From assembly GCA_947646655.1 (NCBI GenBank), contig CANSHI010000002.1:1-64000 (forward strand): 64,000 bases of DNA, written 5' to 3'. Of the stretch, positions 32,300 through 37,600 are shown piece by piece (the stretch's first letter is position 1; each line of letters begins with the position of its first letter). The DNA comes from an uncultured bacterium (GTDB lineage: Bacteria; Bacillota_I; Bacilli_A; RF39; UBA660). Below the pieces are notes generated by a model. It was not told the origin of the DNA. It made no database searches and worked only from the letters and a program-made list of their open reading frames with translations. The position numbers were made by a program, and so were the translations under genes.

Positions 32300-34187
32300 C
32301 ATCATTTTCTTTCTCTTTTTTGGAACTTTCATATTTTGATAGTTTTCCTGTTGTTACTAATTCGTCGATTTCTTCTTTTGTGATTGTTTCATGTTCTATT
32401 AAAGTGTTACTTATTAAAATTACTAGTTTTTTATTTTCTTTAATAATGCGTGTTGCTTCTTTATAACATGATTCAACAATTTTTCTTACTTCTGTATCTA
32501 TTTCAAGGGCAACTTGATCTGAGAAGTTTTTAGCTTTATCATAATCTCTTCCTAAGAAAACGTTACCTTGTCTCGTTTCTAATTGAACTGGGCCTAGATC
32601 GCTCATACCATATTCTGTTACCATAGAACGCGCAATTTTTGTTGCCTTTGAGAAATCGTCGGATGCTCCTGTCGATATTTCTCCGAAAAGTAATTCTTCA
32701 GAAACACGTCCTCCTAATAGACCTGTTATTTGTGCAAGCAATTCGTTTTTAGTTGCCAATGACATATGCTCTTCTTTTGGCATCATCATAGTATAACCAC
32801 CAGCCATTCCACGAGGAATAATAGTGATTTTATGAACATCTTGAGCATCTTCTAGTTTTAGACCGATGACAGCATGTCCTGCTTCATGAAGCGAAACTAG
32901 CTTTTTCTCTTTGTCTGTAATTTTTCTACTTACTTTGGCTGGTCCCATGAGTACTCTGTCAGTTGCTTCATCGATTTCATCCATGCCAATAGCTGTTTTA
33001 TTACGTCTAACTGCTAAAAGGGCTGCTTCGTTTAGAAGATTTTCTAAATCTGCTCCACTAAAGCCTGGCGTACGTTTAGATAAGTTTTTGATGTTGACAT
33101 CATCTGTGAATTTTTTGTTTTTGGCGTGAACTTTTAGTATTTCAGCACGTTCACTTGAATCTGGATAATTAACTGTTACTTGTCTATCAAAACGACCTGG
33201 ACGAAGAAGAGCTGGATCTAAAACGTCTGGTCTGTTTGTTGCCGCGATGATGATGATTCCTTCGTTAGCTCCAAAACCATCCATTTCAGTAAGTAATTGG
33301 TTCAATGTTTGTTCACGTTCATCGTGTCCTCCACCAATTCCCGTTCCACGTTGACGACCGACAGCATCTATTTCATCTATAAATATTAAGCAAGGTGCGT
33401 TGTGTTTAGCTTCTTTAAACATATCTCTTACACGGCTTGCTCCGACACCGACAAATAGTTCTACAAAGTCTGATCCACTTATATAGTAAAATGGTACGTT
33501 TGCTTCTCCAGCAACTGCTTTTGCTAGTAATGTTTTACCTGTTCCTGGAGGACCAACTAGTAATACTCCTTTTGGTATTCTAGCACCTAAACTTTGGAAT
33601 TTTTTAGGATTTTTTAGGAAGTCGATAAGTTCTCGAACTTCTTCTTTTTCTTCTTTAAGTCCTGCTACGTCAGTAAACTTTACTTGTCCACCGTCAGGAT
33701 TTAGTTTAGCTGTACTTCTTCCAAAGTCCATAGATTTGTTATTTCCACTTGCTATTTTAGAAAAGAAATAAAGGACAGCTGCTACTAAAACTACTGTAGG
33801 CACTATATTAAGTAGGATTGCAAAAATGCTTGTGCTTCCTGGATCTTTGTTTACTTTTACTTTAAATTCCATCGAATCTGCATAGGATAAAATTTTGTCG
33901 ACAGAAACTTCCGAATAGAGGATATCTGCTTTAAAGTTTTCTGTTTTTTTATAGTCTTTAAGTTTTCCTTCTACAGTATATACACTAGAGTTGATCTTCG
34001 GTGTAATAACTATTTCAGTAATCTCACCAGAACTCGCTTTTTCTAAAAATTCTGTTTGGGTAAAATTGTATGTTTTAAATCTTGAAAAATTGTATAGGCA
34101 AACTGCTCCAATCATGATTAAAATTAGAACTCCATACATTAAAACGGATTTTATTACATTGTTGGTATTTGTTTTTTTAATTTTCAT
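32280..34187 (-). CDS. ftsH: ATP-dependent zinc metalloprotease FtsH
   Basis: 635 aa. Two N-terminal membrane helices around an extracytoplasmic domain, AAA+ module ([32 protein letters not shown]; second region of homology [20 protein letters not shown]) and zinc protease motif HEAGH. Degrades membrane and regulatory proteins. The ATG of MKIKKTN is chosen with AAAGGTG upstream; a GTG four codons earlier is possible. It overlaps tilS by 11 bp; hpt, normally between them, is missing. Confidence 0.97.
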
Positions 34188-35505
34188 TTGTTTTATCACC
34201 TTTCTTTATATACTTAAGTATTATATCACACTTTTCTTTGTTTTCATTATCAAATTTACTCTTGCGTAAACCTGGTACCCAAAGTATGGTATTTTCACTG
34301 TCTACTAAAAGTGGATAGGTTGCTCTTTCTGATTTAGGAATTTTTTCATCGATGAAAAGACTCTTAATAGATTTGTGGCCTTGTGAGTTTTTAATATTTA
34401 TTTTGTCTTTTTCTTTTCTATTCCTTATGTATAGAGGAAGATGTAGTTCGTGACTGTTTAGGAAAATAGTATTATTAGAAGTATCAGCAGAAGAATCAAC
34501 CTTCAGTATTTTATCACCATTAGGAAGAAGGACTTCTTTTTGTAGTTCTAAATAGTAATCTTTATTTTCTGTTTCACGGACAAATATTAACTTGTCGTAT
34601 TCTCTAATGGCTTTTAAGCCAAGCGGTAAATCTATCGACTTGTTTTTTTCTGTTTCGAGCAAATATAGTATACTATCAATGTGGAAAACTTGCAACTTAT
34701 CCACATCATTTTTGTAAAGTTTTTTTAAAATTTTTTCGATTTCTCTTTTTTGAAGATATTTATCTAGAGTTAAAAAGCGATCGAGCAAAATATAATTTTC
34801 TTTAAAGTTATCTTCTATTTGCTTTTCTAAAAGTGAGTCAATAAAGTTTTCCGTTTCTATAATAGATTCACTAAATTGCAAATATTTTTGATGAATCTCA
34901 GGAGAAAGTGATTTTAGAAATGGCAACATTTGATGTCTATACTTATTTCTTGTATATGTTTCATCGTTATTAGAAGGATCAGTTACGTACGGTATTTTAT
35001 TTTCAGTATTGTAGTTGATAATGTCTTTTTTCGTGTAATATATTAAAGGTTTAATGTAAGAGAAGTCGTTTTCTTTGTAAAATGCTTCGAAGCCTCCATA
35101 GCCCCTTAAATAAGAGCCTCTAGTTAGTCGCATCAGTATAGTTTCTATTAGATCGTCACCGTGGTGGGCGGTTAAAATGTAACTAGTGTTGTACTCCATT
35201 GCTAATTGTTTATAAAATTCGTGGCGTTTTTGTCGATAATAAGACTCATTTTTATCAGGTGTTTTTTCAAGTTCTAATCCTTCAAAGGAAATGTTATTTC
35301 TTTCACAATAGTCTTTTACAAAAGAATATTCTTTCGTACTTTCTAGTCTAATATTATGATTAACGTGAGCACATATAACACGATAGTTATTCGATTTTAA
35401 AAGATGAAGTAGACACATCGAATCTGGTCCACCTGAGCAACCGAGAATGAGAGGTGAATTTTTTTCAATATTAAGTTTTTTTAAAAGATTCAAACTTTGG
35501 TTCAT
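34177..35505 (-). CDS. tilS: tRNA(Ile)-lysidine synthase
   Basis: 442 aa. PP-loop ATPase motif LGCSGGPDSMCLLHLL, then HVNHNIR and TAHHGDDLIET, and the C-terminal TilS domains. Converts C34 of tRNA-Ile(CAU) to lysidine so that it reads AUA, essential in AUA-rich low-GC genomes. Upstream lies the reverse-transcriptase cassette. Confidence 0.95.
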   Translation of the reverse strand: MNQSLNLLKKLNIEKNSPLILGCSGGPDSMCLLHLLKSNNYRVICAHVNHNIRLESTKEYSFVKDYCERNNISFEGLELEKTPDKNESYYRQKRHEFYKQLAMEYNTSYILTAHHGDDLIETILMRLTRGSYLRGYGGFEAFYKENDFSYIKPLIYYTKKDIINYNTENKIPYVTDPSNNDETYTRNKYRHQMLPFLKSLSPEIHQKYLQFSESIIETENFIDSLLEKQIEDNFKENYILLDRFLTLDKYLQKREIEKILKKLYKNDVDKLQVFHIDSILYLLETEKNKSIDLPLGLKAIREYDKLIFVRETENKDYYLELQKEVLLPNGDKILKVDSSADTSNNTIFLNSHELHLPLYIRNRKEKDKINIKNSQGHKSIKSLFIDEKIPKSERATYPLLVDSENTILWVPGLRKSKFDNENKEKCDIILKYIKKGDKTNEN

Positions 35506-35608
35506 AAGTAATCTCTTTCTTTCGTAATTATTCTACTAAATAACTTTTAAATTTGCAAGAAGTTGTTTTATAAAATTGCGTAAACTCATAAAATGAAAAA
35601 AATTGCCT

Positions 35609-36721
35609 TTAAAAGTTTTTCTTTTGCAAACTTTTAACAGTGCAATATTTTAAAAATCCATTATAGCTAGCTTTTACTCTGATAAGTTTTTCTTCATCAT
35701 GTTTGCTCAATATTTTGAATTTTCGTTTCATTCTTTTTTTAGTTTGATTTTTTATACGTATTATTAAGCGATTGTTTCTTTTGAAAAAACGATAGCCTAC
35801 AAACTCGAAACCAGAAATGGAATTGTAAATTTCTGTTTTATTATTTAATTCCAATTTTATACTTTTAATAAATTTGTCTATTAATATTTTGGCTTCTTTT
35901 AATCTTTCTTTATTTTCACAAAAAATTATTCCATCATCCATGAAACGAATATACTCTTTAAAATGTAGTTGTTCTTTAATATAGTGATCCAATGAGCTTA
36001 AGTAATAGACAGCGAATATTTGACTGGATAGAGAACCTATTCCAAGACCTTTATTGTCAGTATAACGGGGTATACGATCGAGTTCTTTTAATCTGAGTAA
36101 AGCTTCTTTAGTTCCTATAGAAAGTAATCTTTTTTTCTCTGATTCGATACATCTATCTATTTCTCTATTGATGTAAGTAGCGTTTGTTGCATCGATGATA
36201 GTACATAAGATATTATATATGTCATCATCTATAAATATTTTCCTCATGTTCTCTTTTAGAATATTGTGATCAATGTTATAAAAGTATTTGCTAATATCGA
36301 ATTTTAACACATAAAATTTTTCGTATTTGTTCATAAGTCTAATGAAGTATTTTTTGCAAAGCTTGATTGCTTCATTTGTTCCCTTTCCCACTCGAGTAGC
36401 TACATTTTCTTCGATTAATTTAGGGTATAAAGCTGGCTTTAGGAAGGTGTTGCTCACTAGATGATTGACTATTTTGTCTTTAATCCCTTCACTCATGACG
36501 ATTCGATATTTAGGTTCTCTTATTAGAAAAATGTTATATTTAGAATGTTTATAAATTTTTTTAGAAAGTTCATTATAGAGACTTATAGTGTTTGCTGAAT
36601 GGAATAGATCATATTTTATAATTTTATTTTTATGCTTAGTATTTTTGCATATTTCTTTGTAGTTTTCAACGATAGTCTCATATGACAGCATATCCTCATA
36701 CTTGAGCAGACTTTTTTTCAC
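35609..36721 (-). CDS. Reverse transcriptase of diversity-generating-retroelement type
   Basis: 370 aa, only the RT domain, without maturase or endonuclease modules. The motifs fit DGR RTs: EPKYRIVMSEGIKDKIVNHL, RVGKGTNEAI, LKFDISKYFYNID (about 137-150), GLGIGSLSSQIFAVYYL (about 223-240, with the DGR-type SQ), catalytic YIRFMDD (about 257-263), FEFVGYRFF, and a C-terminal ASYNGFLKYCT end like the DGR SYLGHLKH. It overlaps the Avd-like gene by 26 bp. In DGRs the RT with Avd copies a template repeat with adenine mutagenesis into a variable protein. No template or variable repeat was found here. Confidence 0.85.
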   Translation of the reverse strand: MKKSLLKYEDMLSYETIVENYKEICKNTKHKNKIIKYDLFHSANTISLYNELSKKIYKHSKYNIFLIREPKYRIVMSEGIKDKIVNHLVSNTFLKPALYPKLIEENVATRVGKGTNEAIKLCKKYFIRLMNKYEKFYVLKFDISKYFYNIDHNILKENMRKIFIDDDIYNILCTIIDATNATYINREIDRCIESEKKRLLSIGTKEALLRLKELDRIPRYTDNKGLGIGSLSSQIFAVYYLSSLDHYIKEQLHFKEYIRFMDDGIIFCENKERLKEAKILIDKFIKSIKLELNNKTEIYNSISGFEFVGYRFFKRNNRLIIRIKNQTKKRMKRKFKILSKHDEEKLIRVKASYNGFLKYCTVKSLQKKNF

Positions 36722-37058
36722 TGTTTATTACTCCAAATGCCAGTTTGCGAATATTTTCGATTTCACTTGAATATACTTGAAATTTATTTTTGCCTAGTAC
36801 TCTAGCATGATATAAACATTCTAAATAGTAATCTAACATAGATACTTCGACTACTAAATCTTTTAAGTATTTTAATTTAACTCTGTTCGTCTCGTTAGAA
36901 TTTACAATGTAATATTTTATCAATCGAATTGAACTGTCAAAAGAATTTTGCATGTTCTTTTTTATGTACATCAAACTTTTAGGTATGTTGTTTGAGTACT
37001 TCATCATTTCGAAGGAAAATTCTTTTACGTGTTTGTATAAGAGAAAGTTATCATTCAT
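36696..37058 (-). CDS. Avd-like four-helix-bundle protein, partner of the RT
   Basis: 120 aa, fully helical, basic, with the size and heptad-like pattern of DGR accessory variability determinant (Avd) / S23-like four-helix bundles (e.g. KYLKDLVVEVSMLDYYLECLYHARVLGKNKF). Avd forms a pentamer that binds RT and nucleic acid. Identification rests mostly on the fold pattern and on the 26-bp overlap with a DGR-type RT, so it is moderately firm. Confidence 0.7.
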   Translation of the reverse strand: MNDNFLLYKHVKEFSFEMMKYSNNIPKSLMYIKKNMQNSFDSSIRLIKYYIVNSNETNRVKLKYLKDLVVEVSMLDYYLECLYHARVLGKNKFQVYSSEIENIRKLAFGVINSEKKSAQV

Positions 37059-37103
37059 ACTTCAATCACCAAAAACATAGTATCAAACTTGCTGTAAAAA
37101 GCA

Positions 37104-37120
37104 TGCTACGATGTGTAGCA
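37104..37120. repeat. Perfect 6-bp hairpin upstream of the Avd-like gene
   Basis: TGCTAC-GATGT-GTAGCA in the 128-bp spacer between rpsI and the Avd-like gene. No T tract on either side, so it is not an ordinary terminator. It may be a structural element of the retroelement (speculative). Confidence 0.4.
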
Positions 37121-37146
37121 CTCCCAAATTTGCTAATTAATTAAAT

Positions 37147-37173
37147 AAAAAAGTCCATATGATGAACTTTTTT
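37147..37173. terminator. Terminator after rpsI
   Basis: AAAAAAGTTCAT-CAT-ATGGACTTTTTT on the minus strand, a 12-bp stem with one G-T pair and built-in A/T tracts; it could act in both directions. Confidence 0.9.
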
Positions 37174-37186
37174 GAAATATCGAATA

Positions 37187-37600
37187 TTAACGTTTACTAA
37201 ATTGTGGCGCTCTACGTGCTTTTTTAAGACCTGGTTTTTTACGTTCTTTAATTCTTGAATCACGAGTAGTAAAGCCTTCAGTTTTAAGTATTTTTCTGTA
37301 AGAATCTTCTCTTGTTTGATCAGTATTTTCGTCATATTTAAGAAGACATCTAGATATACCTAATCTTATAGCTCCTGTTTGTCCACTGAATCCGCCACCT
37401 TTTACTGTAACATCGATGTCGAATGTATTTTCGTTGTTAGTTAGTTTTAATGGTTGGCATAAATCCATTACAAGTGTTGCGAATGGAAAGTATTCATTAA
37501 CGTCTACTCCATTTACAGTTATTTTTCCTGATCCTGATGTCATTCTAACTTGTGCGATAGAACGTTTTCTACGGCCAGTTGCAGTTATCATTTTATTCAT
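37187..37600 (-). CDS. rpsI: 30S ribosomal protein S9
   Basis: 137 aa. ATGRRKRSIAQVRM start, GGGFSGQTGAIRLGISRCLL core, and the conserved basic end KKPGLKKARRAPQFSKR that reaches the P site. Follows rplM by 11 bp. Confidence 0.98.
   Translation of the reverse strand: MNKMITATGRRKRSIAQVRMTSGSGKITVNGVDVNEYFPFATLVMDLCQPLKLTNNENTFDIDVTVKGGGFSGQTGAIRLGISRCLLKYDENTDQTREDSYRKILKTEGFTTRDSRIKERKKPGLKKARRAPQFSKR

Follow-up and report, generated by a model that had tools for sequence, protein, structure and literature searches.

The window, by which we mean the whole 64-kb stretch of DNA analysed here, lies on contig C2 of the assembly of an uncultured bacterium (G000; 1.43 Mb, 23 contigs, 92.8% complete) and carries two intact, overlapping genes on its minus strand—a 370-aa reverse transcriptase (RT) with a GTG start (35609–36721) and a 120-aa helical partner resembling Avd (36696–37058), which overlaps the RT start by 26 bp. 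The RT matched Pfam RVT_1 (PF00078) at E 1.3e-14 and displays the motifs FDISKYFYNID (A), GLGIGSLSSQ (B), and YIRFMDDG (C) as well as a C-terminal YNGFLKY, all of them kept in congeners G007 and G008. Its best match among PDB sequences was 8ub7 (E 4.7e-24), labelled there only ‘Reverse transcriptase’, which we take to be the Bordetella phage RT of a diversity-generating retroelement (DGR); Cas6-RT-Cas1 proteins and group II intron RTs/maturases followed well behind. Phage RTs, including those of Bordetella and Faecalibacterium phages, aligned over nearly the full length at 28–32% identity, and these matches, together with the tree placement given below, put the RT in the DGR class. Assignment of the partner as an Avd-type accessory gene draws on a match to PHROG 3206 (‘Avd protein of DGR’, E 1.5e-6) and on a position and overlap that are those of most relatives’ pairs, although profile matches were sub-threshold in both NCBIfam (DivGenRetAVD, 20.1 bits, cut-off 80) and Pfam (bAvd, 1.2e-5, below cut-off, for the 75% identical ortholog of G007). 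The pN/pS of the RT was 0.23–0.32, with synonymous sites saturated, and sequence comparison indicates that both RT and Avd are under purifying selection.

Other identities for the RT were considered and set aside: no retron profile was among the best 25 PADLOC matches listed, the group II intron RT/maturase model TIGR04416 scored 87 bits against an equivalog cut-off of 300, and matches to DRT/UG defence RTs (UG4 best at 4.9e-21; Drt3a at 35 bits, cut-off 200) reflect cross-class similarity only. Elsewhere in G000 we found one Ec107-like retron RT and one RT of group II intron type; the window RT is the only one of DGR type found in this 92.8%-complete assembly.

The pair is flanked by tilS (34177–35505) and rpsI (37187–37600), both also on the minus strand, with spacers of 103 bp on the tilS side (35506–35608) and 128 bp upstream of avd (37059–37186). 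Neither spacer contains a template repeat (TR), and the one upstream of avd, which lacks an msl gene as well, holds a terminator-like hairpin (37121–37103, minus strand). The original prediction had described a DGR-type RT and overlapping Avd-like gene without template or variable repeats in the window, inserted between tilS and rpsI, and each of these points was borne out: an adenine-tolerant search of 33.5–39.5 kb against the whole 64-kb window, on both strands, found no pair of TR and variable repeat (VR), and because rpsI and tilS adjoin with no room for RT-Avd in two congeners (G007, locus L145; G004, locus L147), we interpret the pair as an insertion. The RT locus of G007 instead lies downstream of the str ribosomal-protein operon and that of G008 adjoins rplK-rplA-rplJ-rplL, different sites from that in the window, suggesting that the enzyme cassette moves; the DGR of G126, from another genus, adjoins tilS-ftsH, like the window’s pair. 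Upstream of avd, G007 and G008 both carry an msl gene (MutS domain I), a known type of DGR accessory (PMC10053308), for which there was no match anywhere in G000.

Matches to the window RT were found in 95 of 193 sampled genomes of the same family. Ordinary DGRs are common among these relatives—at 26 of the 39 loci examined, a TR/VR pair whose mismatches were nearly all at adenines lay within a few kb of the RT, usually in the order target, TR, Avd, RT. In a maximum-likelihood tree, the window RT grouped with DGR RTs and not with retrons or group II introns, joining those of G007 and G008 (support 100/100) and then that of G062 (97/95), nested among RTs most of which have a local TR/VR. No close relatives were found in IMG/VR, and a scan of genome_contigs returned a single one, apparently the G007 genome again.

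DGR surveys look for a repeat at the RT locus, for example within 1 kb (PMC8144416), a search criterion rather than a mechanistic requirement; in G000, the TR and RT are on the same contig but 182 kb apart. Searching the assembly with the variable domain of a congener’s target (E <= 1e-5) recovered 46 domain matches on 14 contigs, among them a stand-alone, non-coding template repeat with a structured flank (C2:219156–219268). The domain match here, in an intergenic gap, spans C2:219151–219270, and its translation is rich in Asn, as is typical of TRs. The youngest VR forms the C-terminus of a 643-aa ORF on another contig (C1:246491–246603, locus L103), and thus stands near a 3′ gene end, with 15 mismatches to the TR in 113 bp that all fall on template adenines (15 of 31 adenines changed, 0 of 82 other bases; P ~1.7e-10). 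A second VR (C23:1340–1452) has 16 of 31 adenines and 4 of 82 other bases changed. The absence of a template proposed for the window therefore does not extend to the genome; of the alternatives offered with it, a target lying far away proved right, VRs being scattered over the genome and the template remote too, and neither a cryptic template nor a new use such as defence or RNA repair is needed.

Clear origin from the one assembled TR is seen in only 2 of the 45 VRs, and adenine excess relative to it reached p<0.01 in 11 of 45. Because most VRs differ from it at 16–50 non-adenine sites, much of the repertoire appears to be old or to come from lost or unassembled templates; the remaining VRs, more diverged or of other length, look as expected if they derive from templates that are different, older, or missing from the 92.8%-complete assembly. 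A search of G000 with an RNA model for a second TR gave one convincing copy only, with a further match at C18:1665 (E 0.43). By codon position, variation at the first and second positions is higher in the VR than in the flanking codons, but third positions vary as much, so that this test, which requires no TR, lends weak support to DGR mutation of older VRs. All 15 changes in the youngest VR are A-to-G, which is odd against the 43% of A changes seen in 30 cis TR/VR pairs of the family; data for the BPP-1 RT in E. coli also show C misincorporation opposite A to be favoured, to a lesser degree than 15/15 (PMC12875486).

The DNA on the 3′ side of the TR is conserved, and a pattern search found one copy in G000, two in G006, three in G007, and four in G008, with a covariance model of the TR RNA recovering five in G007 and weaker matches in six other genera. 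A conserved GGGAATAGG lies ~80 bp before the TR, and the 5′ end of the RNA, GGGAAUAGGUU, pairs with AAUCUAUUUCC in the 3′ flank, closing a helix around the TR in which 5 of 11 pairs covary. We tested the fold on ten TR RNAs, with shuffles (n = 500) and a one-column slide as controls. In this test, 98.5% of cells were paired and the fold collapsed on the slide, a control that flatters it since these sequences also served to derive the structure; changes on both sides of a pair are the stronger evidence, and these numbered 15, compared with a shuffle mean of 7.3 and with 0 of 500 shuffles as high. A promoter-like TTGAAA-17-TAATAT, whose count was no better than in shuffles, lies 7 bp upstream of the conserved 5′ end of the TR gene. 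Judging from these alignments, the template RNA is encoded as a gene complete in itself, whose structured product has a covarying fold common to the congeners.

The same search (E <= 1e-5) returned 34 domain matches in G008, 31 in G007, and 17 in G006, TRs included. G007 and G008 each encode one DGR RT, with five and four TR genes, respectively. The four of G008 follow the RT immediately downstream, arranged in tandem; here TR a corresponds to VR L201 (1 non-adenine mismatch), TR b to L195 and L208 (2 each) and to L203 and L197 (4 each), TR c to the cis target (1) and L194 (6), and TR d to L193 (1). Of the TR genes of G007, two are situated upstream of the RT, 3–5 kb away, and the other three are on different contigs; TRs a and b, identical in template, correspond to L173 (1 non-adenine mismatch) and L179 (3), TR e to L216 (5), and TR d to L177 (9), and no young VR was found for TR c. 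Five remote VRs in these two genomes carry 1–2 non-adenine versus 12–18 adenine mismatches. From these pairings, most congener templates appear to have separate remote targets with differences that are mostly adenine-only.

Two template genes on one G007 contig (L123 and L125, on C35) have the same sequence throughout the TR and in most of the 3′ flank but not in the 5′ leader, which suggests that a template was recently duplicated or underwent gene conversion. In congener G006 (L039, on C96), the RT is broken by stops and a frameshift, and two TR genes and ~17 VR-type domains remain, possibly a natural loss of the enzyme.

In G000, 45 homologous C-terminal domains are distributed over 42 ORFs and one gene truncated inside the domain, and the target genes total 70.5 kb, ~5% of the assembly. 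They form a paralog family of 46–77% identity; most have a hydrophobic N-terminus and an N-terminal domain that weakly resembles camelysin/TasA and through which a full-length target model matched the TasA fibre. The C-terminal domain was modelled by AF2 with pLDDT 83 and gave no strong match: no hit to a C-type lectin (CLec) fold was significant, and structural matches to DUF6273 phage proteins and to an IgA peptidase were weak, as were Pfam DUF6273 matches in 2 of 23 cases. Binding of ligands at the cell surface would be a plausible function of these proteins.

We consider it very probable that the window’s RT-Avd pair supplies the enzymes of a trans-acting DGR whose structured TR RNA is remote and whose VR targets are scattered. 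At sequence level, this reading is supported by the TR found far from the RT, by TR-to-VR differences confined to adenines, by the dispersal of the domain family, by the covarying fold, and by the finding of a single DGR RT. In known DGRs, RT-Avd binds structured RNA 3′ of the TR and primes from it, the TR is copied with errors at adenines, and the cDNA replaces the VR (PMC12875486). Here, the separately encoded TR RNA would be supplied in trans to the RT-Avd complex from 182 kb away and reverse-transcribed with errors at adenines, and the mutated cDNA would replace matching VRs close to the 3′ termini of target genes, scattered across the chromosome, whose products are secreted or surface-anchored. 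We take the window RT to be the enzyme because it is the sole DGR-type RT found, its nearest relatives stand beside TRs of the same RNA family, and both it and Avd are under purifying selection; the RT and Avd would thus use the TR RNA of contig C2. Homing is probably current, and the perfect agreement of the youngest VR with the TR at 82/82 non-adenine sites implies that it was recent on a mutational clock.

The best-surviving alternative is a dying DGR, in which loss of the TR and target from the locus left RT-Avd stranded and the remote VRs are relics of earlier diversification. The many non-adenine differences in most VRs, the missing msl, and the frameshifted RT of G006 beside surviving TRs and VRs would all fit this account; we nevertheless judge it improbable, given an RT and Avd that are intact and under purifying selection, a TR RNA that keeps its covarying fold, and the recent homing indicated by the youngest VR. 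Less credible still is that RT-Avd was co-opted for defence or RNA repair and that the remote TR and VRs belong to another, unassembled RT, as the 182 kb of physical separation and the 7% of the genome that may be missing would allow: the nearest relatives, G008, G007, and G062, have RTs of this lineage next to TRs that belong to the same RNA family, cross-matches to DRT/UG profiles are weak, and no other DGR RT was found in G000. The idea that the TR and the scattered domains are no more than paralogs that have drifted apart or recombined deserves almost no credence, even though the targets do form a paralog family and the excess of adenine over non-adenine changes is weak for many members, since 15/15 mismatches on adenines in 113 bp (p ~2e-10), the five adenine-biased remote VRs of G007 and G008, and the greater variability of codon positions 1 and 2 in the VR than in its flank all speak against it; by these sequence comparisons it is refuted for the young VRs and may hold for the oldest.

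Remote targets and trans activity are already known (PMC10907252, PMC7517822, PMC8867640, PMC4891356), and the trans-working DGR proposed here shares much with described systems. Like the BPP-1-type DGR (bRT, Avd, and a TR with structured spacer; PMC12875486), it combines an RT of the same class with an overlapping Avd, a non-coding TR that is rich in adenine and precedes a structured RNA, and VRs that differ from the TR specifically at adenines and lie at the 3′ end of the target gene. It differs in that RT and Avd stand alone in G000, the TR being a separate RNA gene 182 kb off with a conserved 5′/3′ closing helix, in its dozens of dispersed targets, and in the msl gene of its congeners. Thiohalocapsa PB-PSB1, with 9 DGR loci, 15 targets, and 21 VRs, some in trans, likewise has incomplete loci and targets for which an RT/TR working in trans is the best explanation (PMC10907252), but several DGR loci are present there, whereas G000 has one candidate RT for ~45 domains and RT and TR together at no locus. 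Cyanobacterial DGRs have remote variable proteins (PMC7517822), and Trichodesmium has 18 TR/VR loci with two DGR RTs (PMC8867640); these share dispersed paralogous targets with TR homology, but are described as cassettes with proximal and remote targets, whereas the TR itself is detached in G000 and the TR genes of its relatives occur in arrays or sets. The Treponema denticola DGR also has a core RT/TR locus with remote targets, one of which fits another strain’s TR better, and differs in that the TR stays in the core locus and far fewer targets are reported in the text covered here (PMC4891356). Very high VR counts in some genomes were noted in one survey, in which the highest were called atypical, with non-adenine changes (PMC6642488). 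Within the literature partially covered here, we found no account of a DGR in which the template forms an RNA gene of its own away from the RT locus, or in which arrayed templates serve distinct remote targets.

DGR surveys seek an RT next to its repeat and state that remote targets are missed (PMC8144416). The present pair is an example of what is overlooked—an orphan RT-Avd in a small-genome bacterium that, by the sequence record, would maintain ~45 diversifiable domains amounting to ~5% of the assembly—and suggests a genome-wide re-reading of RT-Avd pairs called ‘without TR/VR’. Trans templating can readily be tested in this system, since the TR-RNA gene is compact and self-contained, its fold is conserved, RT and Avd stand alone, and the congeners have several templates paired to separate targets; a modular template gene of this kind could also serve targeted mutagenesis. 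More tentatively, one RT-Avd pair in a 1.4-Mb genome might drive library-style diversification, with independent template-RNA genes each feeding a subset of dozens of surface proteins, an extension that we hold to be plausible without favouring it. If this were true, templates would be duplicated, arrayed, and replaced over time, lineages would gain and lose template sets, and traces of earlier templates would be preserved in the targets like fossils. Such a system would be a bacterial counterpart of antigenic variation by cassettes, with error-prone RNA templates in the role of the cassettes.

Several minor features of these genomes also deserve mention. In G000, 6 of 47 domain matches lie within ~2.5 kb of contig ends (C14, C16, C18, C23), compared with ~8% expected, a tendency that is stronger in G008, and many contig ends of G007 and G008 also carry VR domains; this is no more than suggestive of hypervariability, where repeats or population variation would break assemblies. 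The RT of group II intron type (L220; C1, ~90.5–91.9 kb) has its maturase part in a separate frame and is apparently frameshifted. The retron RT (L221:1363–2304; C16, ~7.9–8.8 kb; PADLOC E 3e-128) is encoded directly downstream of a VR-bearing target gene. Finally, one 1324-aa target (C4:79272–83246, locus L105) has, besides Listeria-Bacteroides/InlB repeats and the VR domain, a pretoxin HINT domain at its C-terminus, which is an unusual combination for a DGR target.
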